Positions 5,638 through 26,116 of a stretch of 26,449 bases of DNA are shown one piece after another. The DNA comes from a virus: IMG/VR virus record IMGVR_UViG_3300026521_000589, positions 1 to 26,449 of that record; one strand, given 5' to 3'. Under the pieces are notes generated by a model. That model saw only the letters and a program-made list of their open reading frames with translations. It had not been told where the DNA came from and did no database searches. Positions within the stretch are counted from its first letter, which is position 1, and each line of letters begins with the position of its first letter. Made by a program: the position numbers and the translations under genes.

Positions 5638-6283
5638 CTTTTTCTCCTAATTTAGATTTTAATATTTTTTTAGCATCCTCAAATGATACAGAGGCGTAGC
5701 GAATATTTCTATCGCTGTCAAAAATCCCCCAATACTCAAGCAGAGAGAGCCAATACTGCACAGGCTCTCTATTGCTTTTAGTGTTGGTATTGATGGACTT
5801 TTGCTTAAATTTTGATGGGGCTATTAGTTGTCTATATTTGCCTATCCTGCCTCCATTGTATAGTTCGTGTAGGATTAGGTAGGGGTTGGCAAAATCGCCG
5901 TATAGCTCCTTGTATTTTCTGTTCTCCTCTCTTATTTTCTCTATGGCTCGTTTGAGACTTAGTAGGTCTCTTTTGTATAGAGCTATCTTTTCCCTGGCTT
6001 TCTCTAGTGTCTCTTTGTCACTAGATAGTTGCGTAGAGAGAGATTCAATTTGAGAGTTGAATATACCAAATATCTGTTTGAGCTTTTGTGAGCCTATGAG
6101 AGTCAAAAAGTGTGGGTTTCCCTGCTCATCTATGATATGATAGTCTCTTTTGTCATAGACAAGCCTCCCCTCTACTATCTCGACTGATGGGTCGATAATA
6201 GTAGAGATAGAGCCATCATTTGGAGCAGGAAAAACGATAATCTCACCCTCTAAGAGGGCTTGTGTTGAGTCGTTTTCAGCCAT
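5627..6283 (-). CDS. Coiled-coil protein of the membrane-peptidase operon
   Basis: A 218-aa protein, family not recognised. The N-terminal 70 residues look like a small beta domain (GEIIVFPAPNDGS...VEGRLVYDKRDYHIIDEQGNPHF). Residues about 75-125 form a strong heptad coiled coil (LSTQLSSDKETLEKAREKIA onward). The C-terminal part (about 130-218) is a mixed helical region with YWLSLLEYWGIFDSDR. There is no signal or membrane segment, so it should be cytosolic. It overlaps the 575-aa membrane protein gene by 34 bases and follows it in the same operon, so the two probably act together, perhaps by coiled-coil contact with the long coiled coil of the membrane protein. Confidence 0.7.
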   Translation of the reverse strand: MAENDSTQALLEGEIIVFPAPNDGSISTIIDPSVEIVEGRLVYDKRDYHIIDEQGNPHFLTLIGSQKLKQIFGIFNSQIESLSTQLSSDKETLEKAREKIALYKRDLLSLKRAIEKIREENRKYKELYGDFANPYLILHELYNGGRIGKYRQLIAPSKFKQKSINTNTKSNREPVQYWLSLLEYWGIFDSDRNIRYASVSFEDAKKILKSKLGEKDEK

Positions 6284-7977
6284 ACTTCTAACCCTTTAAT
6301 AATGCTCTCCTCTAGCTCTCTAAACTCTGTATCATGCTTGACATAGCCTAAATGATGACAAAATTCGTGAGCTAGAACTGTGAGCTTCTCAGGCTCTTTT
6401 TCCCCTATGACTATGATGTCAGTTAGGGGGTCACAATAGCCACCGTTTTCGCCTACTGCTATTTTGATAGTAGGCTTGGTAAGAGGTTGGAACTCTTCTA
6501 CCAAAAAATCCAAAGCCTCTACCAAAGAGGCAGGAGCTGGTGCAAATGTGGTCTCTGATAGTTCAACTTTTTTTCCATCGGTTCGTTCCTGGTAGCCTAG
6601 ATTTGCACCTAGACCATCTCTTTTGATGGTTTGGGCTAGTAGGACTATACCTTTTGTGTTTTCCCTCATAGCGTTTACGCTAGTTCCAAGTGCTGCAACA
6701 TTGGACTTGGTAGTCTCTATCATTGCAGCGGTGTTGGATTGGGTAGCGTAGCTCATGCTCTTACCATAGAGCTTGAGGTTGTTGATACTATCATCTGCAA
6801 GGCGTATCTGTTGCCCTGCGACGACCATAGTTGCTTCTTGGGCTTTGTTTTGGAACATCTTGCCCCAATCTAAGATATAGGACATCTCTCGATAGTCCTC
6901 TACCAAATCAGGTGGGGCGTTTTTGATGACTCTATAGAAAGCCAACCAATGGATATGGCTCAATCCCTCGAACAAAAAGAGGAGGATAATAGTGTAGATA
7001 ATCCTCCAAAAACCACTCTCCTCTAGCTCTGCATCTAGGGAGCTAGATACTTTGGTGAGTTTGTCAGTCAAAGAGAGCTTCTCATCACGGAGCTGTTTAA
7101 GCTCTTGGCTAATCTCTTTTTGTCTTTGATTAGCTCTATCTATTGCCTCCTTTGATTTTTGTTTGTTGGTATAGAGTGCTTGTCTTGCTCTTACCTGTTT
7201 TCTTGTAGGGTTTCTAAGCTTTGTGAGCCTAACTATCTGTTTGGAAAACTCTTCTATGTTTTTGTTCTCCATCTCGATAGTTTTGTTTAGGCTCTTTTTC
7301 TCCTCTAGCAAGGCTTTTATCTGTTCGGTTATATCCCTGCTAGAGTCCTCTAACCCCTTTGTTTGGATACCCTCTGTGGTAGAGGTGCTGTTCATCACTA
7401 CTGCTTTTTTGGTCTCGTTTTTGCTCCCTACTACCAAATAGGCAAAGTAGGTATGAGAGGCAAATTGAATAAACAGCAGTACAAAAAGGATAGTTCGCTC
7501 TAGTTTCCTGGTCTTTTGGTTTCGCTTGTTGAAGCCTCCTAAAAAGAGAAACTCCGTAAGACCAAGCATAATGGCAGATATAAGCCCAACCAACAAGATA
7601 ATGGTAAAAGTATAGTCATTGTAGAGTGACTCAAATCCCTCTACAATCTGCTTGATGTCATATATCATGATGTAGCTTGTGATTGGTACAAGTAGCACAA
7701 TAGAGAGGATAGTACCGAGGATAACCAAGATTTTGTTTTGGATATTGAATGCACCCGTAGAGGTATATGAGTGAGCTTTGCCTATATGTTGTACTCGGTC
7801 AGAGTAGTCAATGTTGGAGCGACTGGATCCAAGCTTGTCATCAAACTTGCCTGAGACGGTCTCTTGGCTACCCAAAAAGTCATCTAGCTCCTCCCTTGCT
7901 CTGTCTGCACTCTCTTTGAGCATATCAGAACCCTCTGTAGGGTCCCTGACATGCTCTGTTGTATCTTTGTCTGTCAT
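6250..7977 (-). CDS. Membrane protein with coiled coil and C-terminal zinc-peptidase-like domain
   Basis: A 575-aa protein with a layout I do not recognise. Residues 1-80 are acidic and soluble. Membrane segments are seen at about 82-106, 124-148, 161-184 and 323-350. Between the third and fourth lies a long coiled coil, about 210-315. Residues 375-450 are Ala/Thr/Asn-rich helical repeats. The C-terminal 100 residues end in a beta-sheet and the motif LAHEFCHHLGYVKHDTEF, with HExxH at 537-541 and a third candidate ligand His548 followed by Phe552. That HExxH...H...F spacing resembles SprT/YgjP-type minigluzincins. A catalytic role is inferred. Three hydrophobic helices then a coiled coil and a fourth helix would place the coiled coil and the peptidase on defined membrane sides. 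It sits between a 203-aa and a 218-aa partner gene. Confidence 0.8.
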   Translation of the reverse strand: MTDKDTTEHVRDPTEGSDMLKESADRAREELDDFLGSQETVSGKFDDKLGSSRSNIDYSDRVQHIGKAHSYTSTGAFNIQNKILVILGTILSIVLLVPITSYIMIYDIKQIVEGFESLYNDYTFTIILLVGLISAIMLGLTEFLFLGGFNKRNQKTRKLERTILFVLLFIQFASHTYFAYLVVGSKNETKKAVVMNSTSTTEGIQTKGLEDSSRDITEQIKALLEEKKSLNKTIEMENKNIEEFSKQIVRLTKLRNPTRKQVRARQALYTNKQKSKEAIDRANQRQKEISQELKQLRDEKLSLTDKLTKVSSSLDAELEESGFWRIIYTIILLFLFEGLSHIHWLAFYRVIKNAPPDLVEDYREMSYILDWGKMFQNKAQEATMVVAGQQIRLADDSINNLKLYGKSMSYATQSNTAAMIETTKSNVAALGTSVNAMRENTKGIVLLAQTIKRDGLGANLGYQERTDGKKVELSETTFAPAPASLVEALDFLVEEFQPLTKPTIKIAVGENGGYCDPLTDIIVIGEKEPEKLTVLAHEFCHHLGYVKHDTEFRELEESIIKGLEVWLKTTQHKPS

Positions 7978-10090: not shown

Positions 10091-11176
10091 ATGAAAAGTA
10101 GAGAAACTGTCAATATAAGTGTACGAAAACAGCGTGATAGAGAGTATATCTATCTGAGAAAAACCATCATCATAGATGGTCGAAAGGTAGACAAGCGTAT
10201 CTCAACAGGACTCGAAGCGACTTCTGCCAACTTGGCGTATGCCAAACAAAACGGCGTGGAGCTGTTTCGGGAACTGATGGGAGAGACCAAGGAGAATCGT
10301 GTGATCCTCTTTGAGGATTTCTATCAAGAGGCGTTGGATTTTTTGGGTTTGGGCGTGACAGAGGAGACGAAGCAGAGGAGGGTGACCAATATTATCAACT
10401 CTGTTTTGCCGATACTGGGCAAACGCAACCTGCTCAACATCTCGCCTTATGACATCGAACAGTGGCAGACCCAACTCTATCTACATAGAGGAGGGGACTA
10501 CACGAGCCGAGTCAAGAGTCTCTTGCGTAGGATCTTCGATAGAGCCATGGTCAAAAAGCTCATACACGCCAACCCCTGCCACGGCACGGCTCCCATCAAA
10601 AAAGAGCCAAAGCAACGCAGGGAGATATATACCCAAGAGGAGGTCGAGAGGATGATACAAGAAGCCGACCTTTTTTTGAGGGCATTTATCTATGTGATGG
10701 CGACCTTGGGGGTGCGTACAGGTGAAGCAGTTGGGTTGATGTTTGATGATTTTGACCATCAGATCCACAAGCTTCATCTGCAACGCTCTATCAGGCACGG
10801 CAAAATATCACCACCCAAAACAGGTGAGCGATATATCGACGTGCCACCAAGGACACTGGAACTGGTCAAACAGCTCCAAGAGCAGAGCAGTAGCCAGTGG
10901 CTCTTTGCCACCAAGGATGGGGGTCACTATCATGATGGGGCGACCATCAACCAAAAACGGTTTCAGCCATTTTTGGAAAAACTGGCCATCCCCTACAAGA
11001 GCCTCTATAGCCTAAGGCACTTTCACGCGACTCTCGCCCTCATTAAGGGGCAAGACCTGGCATATCTATCCAAACAGATAGGACACGCCAACATAAAAAC
11101 AACCTTAGATTTTTATGTTGGGTATATGCCAAACAGCGAACATTCAGCAAAAAAGGGCGAAATCTTCAATTTTTAG
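10091..11176 (+). CDS. int: Tyrosine-family phage integrase
   Basis: A 361-aa tyrosine recombinase that should catalyse integration and excision at the adjacent att site. Residues 1-60 form an arm-binding-type beta domain, 65-165 the SAM-like core-binding domain, and 175-345 the catalytic domain. Catalytic residues visible: Arg209 (VRTGEAVGL), Lys243 (beta-hairpin PPKTGER), Arg309 and His312 region (YSLRHFHATLAL), His332 (IGHANIKTT) and nucleophile Tyr342. The first His of the HxxR box is Tyr306 here, a substitution seen in some active members. No ribosome-binding site precedes ATG 10091; a dyad ends at the base before it, suggesting autoregulation or leaderless translation. The gene points at the tRNA-derived att core 90 bases downstream. 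Confidence 0.95.
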   Translation: MKSRETVNISVRKQRDREYIYLRKTIIIDGRKVDKRISTGLEATSANLAYAKQNGVELFRELMGETKENRVILFEDFYQEALDFLGLGVTEETKQRRVTNIINSVLPILGKRNLLNISPYDIEQWQTQLYLHRGGDYTSRVKSLLRRIFDRAMVKKLIHANPCHGTAPIKKEPKQRREIYTQEEVERMIQEADLFLRAFIYVMATLGVRTGEAVGLMFDDFDHQIHKLHLQRSIRHGKISPPKTGERYIDVPPRTLELVKQLQEQSSSQWLFATKDGGHYHDGATINQKRFQPFLEKLAIPYKSLYSLRHFHATLALIKGQDLAYLSKQIGHANIKTTLDFYVGYMPNSEHSAKKGEIFNF

Positions 11177-11182
11177 CCCTAT

Positions 11183-11389
11183 TTTGTCGCTATTTCGTCA
11201 CTATGGAGACAGACACAAGCAGAAAACCCCAAAAAATGGGAAAATGCTTGGATAGTAGTGCGAACCTCATAAGCCGGAGGTCGAGGGTTCGAGTCCCTCT
11301 CTTACTACCACTATTCAATCATTTCCAAACAACATTTTTTATTATTTTCTGTTTTTTCTCTATTTTTCTTGGCACTATTGCGTCACTAT
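11183..11389. other. attP: Phage attachment site, apparently a complete attP
   Basis: The core is the 3' part of a tRNA gene (11266-11310). Left arm repeats: TTTGTCGCTAT (11183-11193) and TTCGTCACTAT (11194-11204). Right arm repeats: TTGGCACTAT (11369-11378) and TGCGTCACTAT (11379-11389). The inner edges lie 61 and 58 bases from the core. Paired, same-direction repeats on both sides look like integrase arm-type sites of an uncut attP; a prophage end would have them on one side only. The reading is an inference from symmetry. Confidence 0.65.
11266..11310 (+). pseudogene. 3' fragment of a tRNA-Met (CAT) gene, att core
   Basis: The sequence starts at the anticodon loop CTCATAA, continues with the anticodon-stem 3' side GCCGG, variable loop, a perfect T-arm (GAGGG-TTCGAGT-CCCTC), the acceptor 3' strand TCTTACT, A and CCA. 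There is no D-arm or 5' acceptor strand: only about ten bases separate a weakly matching AGTAGTG from the anticodon. So it is not a working tRNA but the piece that restores a host tRNA-Met after integration. Confidence 0.75.
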
Positions 11390-11411: not shown

Positions 11412-11626
11412 CTAACCCATTAGTGAGGTGTTGTCCTTTATTTGAATATGCGTTATATCCTCCTTTGAATTTAAACAGAACATCCAACTCATTCCCTTCT
11501 CCTGATGGGTTAGCTTATATTAACTGAACGTTAATAGCAGAACCCATCAGAGACTTTTCCCTTTTTTGCCTCTGTCCCTATTTCCCCCTTGGGTTCTGCT
11601 ATTAGAGTTTACGCTATGGAGAAAAA
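11412..11626 (+). promoter_or_regulatory. Leader with competing hairpins upstream of the HTH gene
   Basis: Arms: A CTAACCCAT (11412-11420), B TGATGGGTTAG (11503-11513), C TAATAGCAGAACCCATCA (11532-11549), D TGGGTTCTGCTATTA (11590-11604). B can pair with A (9 bp) or with C (9 bp), and C can pair with D (15 bp, perfect). B:C and C:D exclude each other. A small hairpin TATTAAC-TGAAC-GTTAATA (11518-11536) lies between B and C. No open frame of note is present. This is the plan of an attenuator or a pair of operators. Confidence 0.5.
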
Positions 11627-12042: not shown

Positions 12043-12118
12043 CCTCTAAAAAGAGTCTTTTGAGGAAGATTGTTTTTAGAGGTAGAGGGGTCATTTGATA
12101 ATGATAGCTATCCCCTCT
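12043..12118 (+). terminator. Tandem hairpins after the HTH gene
   Basis: CCTCTAAAAA (12043-12052) and TTTTTAGAGG (12073-12082) are perfect 10-base arms. AGAGGGG (12084-12090) and CCCCTCT (12112-12118) form a second stem with a perfect palindrome GATAGCTATC (12103-12112) inside. The first resembles a terminator whose stem ends in A/T runs. Both may also be operators. Confidence 0.4.
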
Positions 12119-12139
12119 CCTCGCCGTCAAAAAGCTGTT

Positions 12140-16671: not shown

Positions 16672-17304
16672 ATGCTACTAAGTCAAGTTAAATTTGCAGA
16701 ATATATTGGTGTCCACAAAGCTACAGTTTCTAAAATGAAAAAACGTCGAGAACTTGTTATGCAGGGTAAAAAAGTAGATGTTGAAAAAACCATTGAGCTT
16801 TTAAGAAGTATTGGTAAAACATTTGATGTCAATAATAAAATGATTTCATCCAATACTCTTCCTGGTACTATAGAAAAACAAGAAGAAAATATCTTTGATG
16901 TAGATCCAGCCTCTTACCCGACACTTTCGGCAGATGAAAAAAAGCAACAAGCCAAACAATTGCTTGAGAGAGAGATGGAACAACAAGCACAGGAGCTTGG
17001 GTTAAAACTTTCTGATATTCAGACCCCAGAGATAGAAGCGATGGAGAAATGGGAAGTCGAAAGATTTAAAATCTTTTACCAGGGAATGCTTGAGAGAGCG
17101 AAGTATTTTAAAGAGATTGGTCAGCTTGTAGATGTAGAAGAAGTAAGAGAAGAGCAGTTTACTATTGCACGTACTGTTCGAGATGCTGTTATGAGCATGA
17201 GCAATAGAATAGCTCATAAGCTTATTAATAAGACAGAGATGCATGAAGTGAAATTGATACTTGATGCTGAAGCTTTGAAGGTTATGGAGAATTTGAGTTT
17301 ATGA
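16672..17304 (+). CDS. Terminase small subunit, Nu1-like
   Basis: A 210-aa protein of the Nu1 type, which recognises cos and recruits the large subunit. Residues 4-28 form the N-terminal HTH (QVKFAEYIGVHKATVSKMKK). A Gln/Glu-rich helical middle follows, and the C-terminus FTIARTVRDAVMSMSNRIAHK has the typical arrangement of Nu1 proteins (R..RD..L..P.R.A......). The large subunit gene is separated from it by about 2.7 kb of methyltransferase and unknown genes, an insertion relative to lambda. The stop overlaps the next ATG by 4 bases. Confidence 0.82.
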   Translation: MLLSQVKFAEYIGVHKATVSKMKKRRELVMQGKKVDVEKTIELLRSIGKTFDVNNKMISSNTLPGTIEKQEENIFDVDPASYPTLSADEKKQQAKQLLEREMEQQAQELGLKLSDIQTPEIEAMEKWEVERFKIFYQGMLERAKYFKEIGQLVDVEEVREEQFTIARTVRDAVMSMSNRIAHKLINKTEMHEVKLILDAEALKVMENLSL

Positions 17305-17764
17305 GTAGAATAGAGAAAAATATTAACATTTTAAACTTAGCAACCCTCTTTACAGGCATAGATGCTGTTGGTCATGGTGCTAGTCGTGTTTATGATTTTG
17401 TAAATCATATCTTTGCGTGTGAGATAGATAAATTTGCTCGTCAAACTTTTTGTTTCAGCGACCAAGAGGGTTTAATAAGGGAGGGAAAAAAGCACTTAAC
17501 GGTGTTGTACCCACTCTATCTTCAAACTCTTGGCAAGATAATAATCATCTCGTATCTAGCGAAGAAATCCGAAAACTCACACCAAGAGAGTGCCTAAGAC
17601 TCCAAGGTTTTGATGATAGCTTTAAAATAGTAGTTTCGGACTCACAGATGTATAAACAAGCAGGAAATAGCATGACAGCAACGGTACTAGAGATGATATT
17701 TGAGCGTGTGCAACTGGCACTTAGTGGAGTTTCTAAAAGTGGAACTCTTATGGATTTTTTATAA
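17301..17764 (+). pseudogene. Decayed cytosine-5 DNA methyltransferase
   Basis: The first frame (17301 to about 17450) gives MSRIEKNINILNLATLFTGI, the N-terminal motif I (FTGIDAVGHG) of a C5 methyltransferase, and ends near CEIDKFARQTF. A second frame from about 17450 to 17764 gives QRPRGFNKGGKKALNGVVPTL, then RKLTPRECLRLQGF and KQAGNSM, which are motifs VIII-X. The whole catalytic centre (motif IV PCQ, the target recognition domain) is missing and the parts are in different frames, so a large internal deletion has occurred and the gene cannot be active. The 4-base coupling to the upstream gene is still intact. Confidence 0.8.
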
Positions 17765-21918: not shown

Positions 21919-22118
21919 TGGCAAAAGAGAAGAACGTGCTAGATAAGAGAACTCAGATACGTTTTCAGGGGAGAGTTATATTGGAGTTGGCGATAGAATC
22001 ATTCATGTCAAAAAAAAATATTACCAAGTCAGATGCAATAGAGGAGTTTTTGATGGGATCAGCGACATTGCAGGAGGAGATGAAAAAGATTAGAGAAGAA
22101 TACACCTATACCAAATAG
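21918..22118 (+). CDS. Unknown 66-aa protein, RHH-like
   Basis: A 66-aa protein starting at GTG 21918, which shares its first base with the terminase stop (TAGTG). A short strand (TQIRFQGRVILELAIESF) followed by helices NITKSDAIEEFLMG resembles a ribbon-helix-helix DNA-binding fold. Not recognised further. The end lies inside the repeated upstream element 22113. Confidence 0.5.
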   Translation: MAKEKNVLDKRTQIRFQGRVILELAIESFMSKKNITKSDAIEEFLMGSATLQEEMKKIREEYTYTK

Positions 22119-22198
22119 AGCATAAAAAAAACTTCCCTTTTTTTTAATTTTTAAAAACTATAGAATATTCTTAATTTTTAAATAAGCAAGGAAGTGTG
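22113..22198 (+). promoter_or_regulatory. Upstream element, copy 1
   Basis: The first 30 bases (AAATAGAGCATA, A-run, CTTCCC, T-run) are identical to 26031-26060 and similarity continues for another 15 bases. A8-CTTCCC-T8 could fold as a hairpin. TATAGAAT at 22159-22166 is a possible -10. The GTG start lies exactly 86 bases after the first base of the repeat, as in copy 2. It probably drives or controls the gpW-position, portal and lysis genes. Confidence 0.55.
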
Positions 22199-26030: not shown

Positions 26031-26116
26031 AAATAGAGCATAAAAAAAACTTCCCTTTTTTTATTTTTTTAAAACAGATAATATTTTGAATAATTAAAAT
26101 AAATCAAAGGATAGCC
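26031..26116 (+). promoter_or_regulatory. Upstream element, copy 2
   Basis: Same element as at 22113: the first 30 bases are identical and the GTG start lies 86 bases after its first base in both. GATAATATT at 26077 is the candidate -10. Controls the protease/head operon. Confidence 0.55.

Follow-up and report, generated by a model that had tools for sequence, protein, structure and literature searches.

Positions 11185-11389 of the window (the whole record of 26,449 bp, which is linear) very probably constitute the complete attP of a temperate phage that has P2-like tail genes, is related to phage SNW-1 and belongs to Sulfurovum-type Campylobacterota. At the level of sequence, the core is identical to host tRNA genes, it carries arm repeats on both sides, and related elements present both the split of such arms in the integrated state and phage genes in the place that follows the right edge of the window.

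The attP core is located at 11265-11310 (plus strand), begins 89 bases past the end of the integrase gene and corresponds to the 3' half of a bacterial tRNA-Met(CAT), with the anticodon loop as its exact start and the encoded CCA at 11308-11310. It had originally been placed at 11266-11310. The assignment to a tRNA-Met 3' half stood, and the extent is corrected to 11265-11310, the 46 bp over which the window and a related phage are identical. In the GTDB genome set, 44 of these bases (11266-11309) had exact matches at 22 loci, all of them in MAGs labelled Sulfurovum, Campylobacteraceae, Campylobacterota or Epsilonproteobacteria. The search for an intact host gene proposed in the original prediction was productive, as ARAGORN recognized an intact tRNA-Met(cat) at 21 of the 22 loci. 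In all the intact genes, the identity between phage and host runs from the anticodon loop CTCATAA to the encoded CCA, and the phage bases located 5' of CTCATAA bear no resemblance to a tRNA. Hence, the core equals the host attB over this exact 44-bp match, as it does in attachment sites of the lambda type. In the window itself, neither a complete tRNA (ARAGORN) nor an RNA family (Rfam) was detected, which is expected because the core is half a gene. The remaining locus (L016:5673-5716, minus strand) is a solitary tRNA-Met 3' half in a Campylobacterota MAG; it was dropped as an integrated relative since no integrase adjoins it, and it is probably the scar of a lost integrated element.

The core is flanked by two tandem pairs of putative integrase arm-type sites. 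The P arm (11185-11204, plus strand) consists of TGTCGCTAT at 11185-11193 and CGTCACTAT at 11196-11204, and the P' arm (11370-11389, plus strand) of TGGCACTAT at 11370-11378 and CGTCACTAT at 11381-11389. All copies are in direct orientation with an 11-bp step in both pairs, and the inner copies lie 60 bases from the core on the left and 59 on the right. A weaker third copy on the left side, TTAGCCCTAT, overlaps the stop codon of the integrase gene. An unconstrained search, in which any 9-mer motif could form two tandem pairs, one on each side of the core (maximum score 36), gave these pairs 32, against a mean of 27.6 and a maximum of 30 in dinucleotide shuffles. None of the 300 shuffles equalled the score, which bears out the earlier claim that the tRNA-Met fragment has tandem repeats at about 60 bases on either side. 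With the geometry fixed, 91 other placements and 500 shuffles were scored, and not one reached this value.

The core pattern also retrieved two viral contigs, IMGVR_UViG_3300026533_000019 (G1, 22,577 bp) and IMGVR_UViG_3300019850_000187 (G2, 46,471 bp). Back-translated integrase and gpD patterns searched against the viral contigs gave no confirmed relatives, whereas the DNA core search did find them. Their integrases are 34% (G1) and 41-42% (G2) identical to that of the window and lie directly upstream of the same core. Both contigs present the order integrase, arm pair, tRNA core, arm pair, and the distances are alike in the three phages (about -80 and +105). The arms read ACGTGC/TCATGC/TCATGC/TCATGC in G1 and AACACA/TTCACACA/TTCACACA/TTCACACA in G2. 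In the unconstrained search, the G2 pairs exceeded all 300 shuffles; the right pair of this phage steps by 10 bp and so is not distinguished by the test with the step fixed at 11 bp. The G1 pairs are weak and do not stand out in the unconstrained search; at fixed distances they exceeded all 500 shuffles and were reached by two of the 91 other placements. Putative arm-type sites thus flank the core on either side in the window, G1 and G2, as in a lambda-type attP, and the one-sided repeats in related genomes that would have spoken against the original prediction were not observed. Far from the G2 attP, this contig also carries a second tyrosine recombinase gene (33680-34771, L062:1680-2771; PF00589, 2.6e-24).

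Integrated forms were sought among 175 genomes of the Sulfurovum family. In contig 5 of genome G076, a 45-bp sequence is directly repeated at 721610 and 761681; the copies are 40,071 bp apart and enclose a prophage. An intact tRNA-Met lies at the first copy (attL), and at the second one (attR) the integrase gene stops 87 bases ahead of the repeat. The 9-mer ACTGCCGAG has exactly four copies in 60 kb of this genome, two in attL and two in attR, inside the prophage. In this family, integrated elements therefore keep one arm pair per end, and free forms have both pairs around one core. Since the window holds both pairs, it contains attP rather than attL or attR. The host tRNA-Met target, the arms on both sides in G1 and G2 and the split arms in G076 agree with the complete attP that had been proposed, as well as with the statement that prophage ends carry arms on one side only. 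No integrated copy of the phage of the window was found. The first bases of a contig of the Sulfurovum-family genome G022 (C271, L082:1-180) fall within a CAT-anticodon tRNA, and a tandem TTTTTGGAACT pair comes next; this is a further attL built in the same way, whose arm sequence again differs. Moreover, the G076 prophage encodes a single frame of 874 aa (L067:2731-5355, G076:C5:746730-749354), in which an Asn-rich region resembling variable proteins precedes a reverse transcriptase domain (RVT_1, 1.6e-15). This arrangement resembles a diversity-generating retroelement whose target protein and reverse transcriptase are fused; no template direct repeat was found in this prophage at a minimum of 60 nt.

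The integrase gene of the window (10091-11176, plus strand) encodes a lambda-like tyrosine recombinase of 361 aa, according to Pfam, PHROG, alignment, an AlphaFold model and Foldseek. It matches Phage_integrase (PF00589, 2.3e-11) and PHROG 1, integrase (3.6e-50), and the catalytic residues of tyrosine integrases are all in place in the alignment (R209, K243, Y306xxR309, H332 and Y342). The AlphaFold model (mean pLDDT 75, from a three-sequence alignment) predicts an N-terminal domain at residues 8-62, with strands at 8-14, 17-28 and 31-42 and a helix at 45-62, followed by the core-binding and catalytic domains. Foldseek related this model to the Tn1549 and lambda integrases, with lambda Int (1z1b) aligned over nearly the entire model (E 5e-10). 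The predicted fold would thus provide the separate arm-binding domain (beta-beta-beta-alpha) of heterobivalent integrases. In lambda, the N-domain of the integrase binds the arm sites and the remainder binds the core (PMC4880445), and the strand-strand-strand-helix domain followed by the remaining domains in the model fits this design.

Regarding the mechanism, we infer the binding of the integrase to arms and core, the crossover point and the physical state of the DNA. The N-domain would grip both tandem arm pairs and the other domains the tRNA-derived core, and strand exchange would take place in or next to CTCATAA (11266-11272, plus strand), where phage-host identity begins and which is common to the phage and the host tRNA-Met gene. 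In the attL generated by integration, the host tRNA 5' half would be completed to an intact tRNA by the 3' half that the phage supplies, with the P' arm pair after it; attR would comprise the integrase gene, the P arm pair, the core and host DNA. The window represents the unintegrated junction.

Among the proteins encoded in the window, Pfam identified a tape measure protein, P2 gpU, gpD, the integrase, a DnaB-like helicase, an N6/N4 methylase, the terminase gpA, a lambda-type portal and a chitinase-like lysozyme; a terminase small subunit is also present, and a head protease is clipped by the right edge. The window is colinear with the circular Sulfurimonas phage SNW-1, with proteins matched in order by tblastn, and it follows the SNW-1-like arrangement terminase-portal-protease ... 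tape measure-U-X-D-integrase (tblastn and Pfam). As for what would lie beyond the window, G1 continues past the equivalent of the right edge with the protease, major capsid protein E and baseplate genes, and in the G2 circle the stretch between portal and tape measure encodes capsid, baseplate J, fibre, sheath and tube. Contractile-tail genes (baseplate J in G1, sheath and tube in G2 and SNW-1) would fall in the part absent from the window, and judged from SNW-1 and G2 its two ends are separated by about 10-13 kb that hold head and tail genes. These head, baseplate and tail genes stand where the original prediction would have been contradicted by host genes, and the gene order closing on itself that it described holds in the G2 circle and in circular SNW-1. 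The proposed check for terminal redundancy was negative, as the record has no terminal repeat or shared end sequence and cannot be classed as a complete circular genome, and the SNW-1 cos sequence had no convincing match in the window, G1 or G2.

Other features of the window were also observed. Two overlapping frames at 17301-17764 look, by eye, like a cytosine-5 DNA methyltransferase split into N- and C-terminal parts; G1 has no match to them between the homologues of the flanking genes, and they are probably a decayed gene. A 74-bp direct repeat (85% identical) occurs at 22113-22185 and 26031-26102, largely between phage genes. Between the tail genes and the integrase, a minus-strand block includes a protein of 575 aa (6250-7977) without a Pfam match, with apparent transmembrane stretches, a coiled coil and a zinc-protease-like AHEFCHH motif, which is a candidate for lysogeny cargo.

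To the right of the P' arm, a conserved double-hairpin module (11412-11609) is the least explained feature near the attP, and the attP assignment does not depend on it. The module is shared with G2 (L061:10341-10512) and the G022 contig (L082:184-320). Its first hairpin combines CTAACCCAT, a C/U-rich loop of 30-84 nt and ATGGGTTAG, with a stem conserved in the three phages. In the second one (11527-11546 paired with 11590-11609 in the window), the stem sequence differs between phages and the pairing is kept, again with C/U-rich loops. The shared module also includes the palindrome TTAACnnAnnGTTAA. The fold z-scores were -4.7 and -3.8, no Rfam family matched the module, and the pattern is rare, appearing in one viral contig besides the window and in one of 175 genomes. 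A G-rich hairpin downstream of a short gene (12079-12123, GAGGTAGAGGGGT...ATCCCCTCTCCTC) is common to two other phages, with the pattern GAGGTAGAGGGGT...ATCCCCTCnCCTC in the same three (L061:10998-11041 and L082:1302-1344 besides the window); further matches in L080 and L081 were discarded as chance composition only. Our guess is that the double hairpin could be a regulatory or immunity RNA. A broader proposal, which we consider possible but doubtful, is that private arm sites insulate prophages co-resident at one attB, the tRNA-Met anticodon loop, from cross-excision, and that the double hairpin, with its C/U-rich loops and the G-rich hairpin downstream, acts in this phage group as an undescribed regulatory RNA such as an immunity RNA.

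Alternative readings of the site have to be considered. The same DNA sequence as a free attP would be found at the internal junction of two copies of one phage integrated in tandem in a chromosome, an arrangement with a precedent in the tandem integration of SGI1 (PMC2297512). This is unlikely, given that a double lysogen is required and that the relative SNW-1 is known in circular and linear free forms (PMC11290706); the relative G2 assembles as a circle by a 141-bp end overlap, although a tandem array would give a circular assembly too. The repeats could also be something other than integrase arm sites, as excisionases and repressors make use of direct repeats as well. However, this reading of the 11-bp repeats as operator or excisionase sites is quite unlikely: they appear as two pairs with motifs matched across the core and at similar distances in the window, G1 and G2, and their divergence between phages is what would be expected of arm sites for a diverging integrase N-domain.

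A core of 45 bp common to phages that are merely distantly related makes false joins possible, so that two different phages stacked in one tRNA gene, or a chimeric assembly at the shared core, could imitate an attP. The arm motif is nevertheless wholly different among four phages, and the left and right arms of the window both carry CGTCACTAT, which indicates that both flanks come from one phage. Arms swapped between phages scored 28-30 of 36, except for one pairing at 32 that scarcely exceeds the chance match of G1 itself (31). Furthermore, the genes on either side of the core are ordered as in circular SNW-1. The chimeric join was rejected on the arm matching, and this explanation as a whole is highly improbable.

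Returning to a complete attP of a single phage, its form fits equally well a free circle, a replication concatemer, linear virion DNA or a tandem lysogen. Of the free, circularised or tandemly integrated genome in the original prediction, it stands that the site is not a lone prophage end; the linear record without terminal repeat does not bear out a circular molecule. An internal attP means that the sampled phage DNA is not, or not only, a single prophage. Lambda-like virions likewise carry attP internally, and this form is the unsurprising, expected look of any excised or virion genome of a temperate phage. The mechanism is already known and the understanding of phage integration is unchanged; this attP is a well-made, ordinary example in non-inserted form. 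Its value is that it ties the contig to a host group, the Sulfurovum-type Campylobacterota, and that it contributes to a comparative set of four integrases with one tRNA target and differing arm sequences, useful for studying arm-site specificity.

Compared with known systems, the attP shares with that of lambda a heterobivalent tyrosine integrase with an N-terminal arm-binding domain (predicted here) and a core between P and P' arms with several arm-type sites (PMC4880445). The attL and attR of lambda each retain one arm (PMC4880445), as in the integrated relative in G076. Lambda differs in its intergenic core, in contrast to the tRNA-Met 3' half found here, and the present site differs in its two tandem sites per arm at equal distance, with no IHF, Xis or Fis sites identified in it. 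SNW-1 (OP810509) has a colinear gene order and the same tail genes, with TerL 36% and portal 42% identical, but a different integrase; a tRNA-like sequence was looked for downstream of the SNW-1 integrase and none was seen. SNW-1 was induced, its linear (cos) and circular genomes were detected, and its authors found no integration site (PMC11290706). The Nitratiruptor phages NrS-1 to NrS-5 are likewise temperate, have hosts among the Campylobacterota of deep-sea vents and integrate in tRNA genes, in their case Asn, Arg and Ser instead of Met (PMC9723563); NrS-2 to NrS-5 are siphoviruses, and their integrases are distant homologues (26%). G1 and G2 coincide with the window in the tRNA-Met core, the related integrases and the arm pairs on both sides; they differ from it in the sequences of the arm sites, and G2 in being a closed assembly of 46.5 kb.
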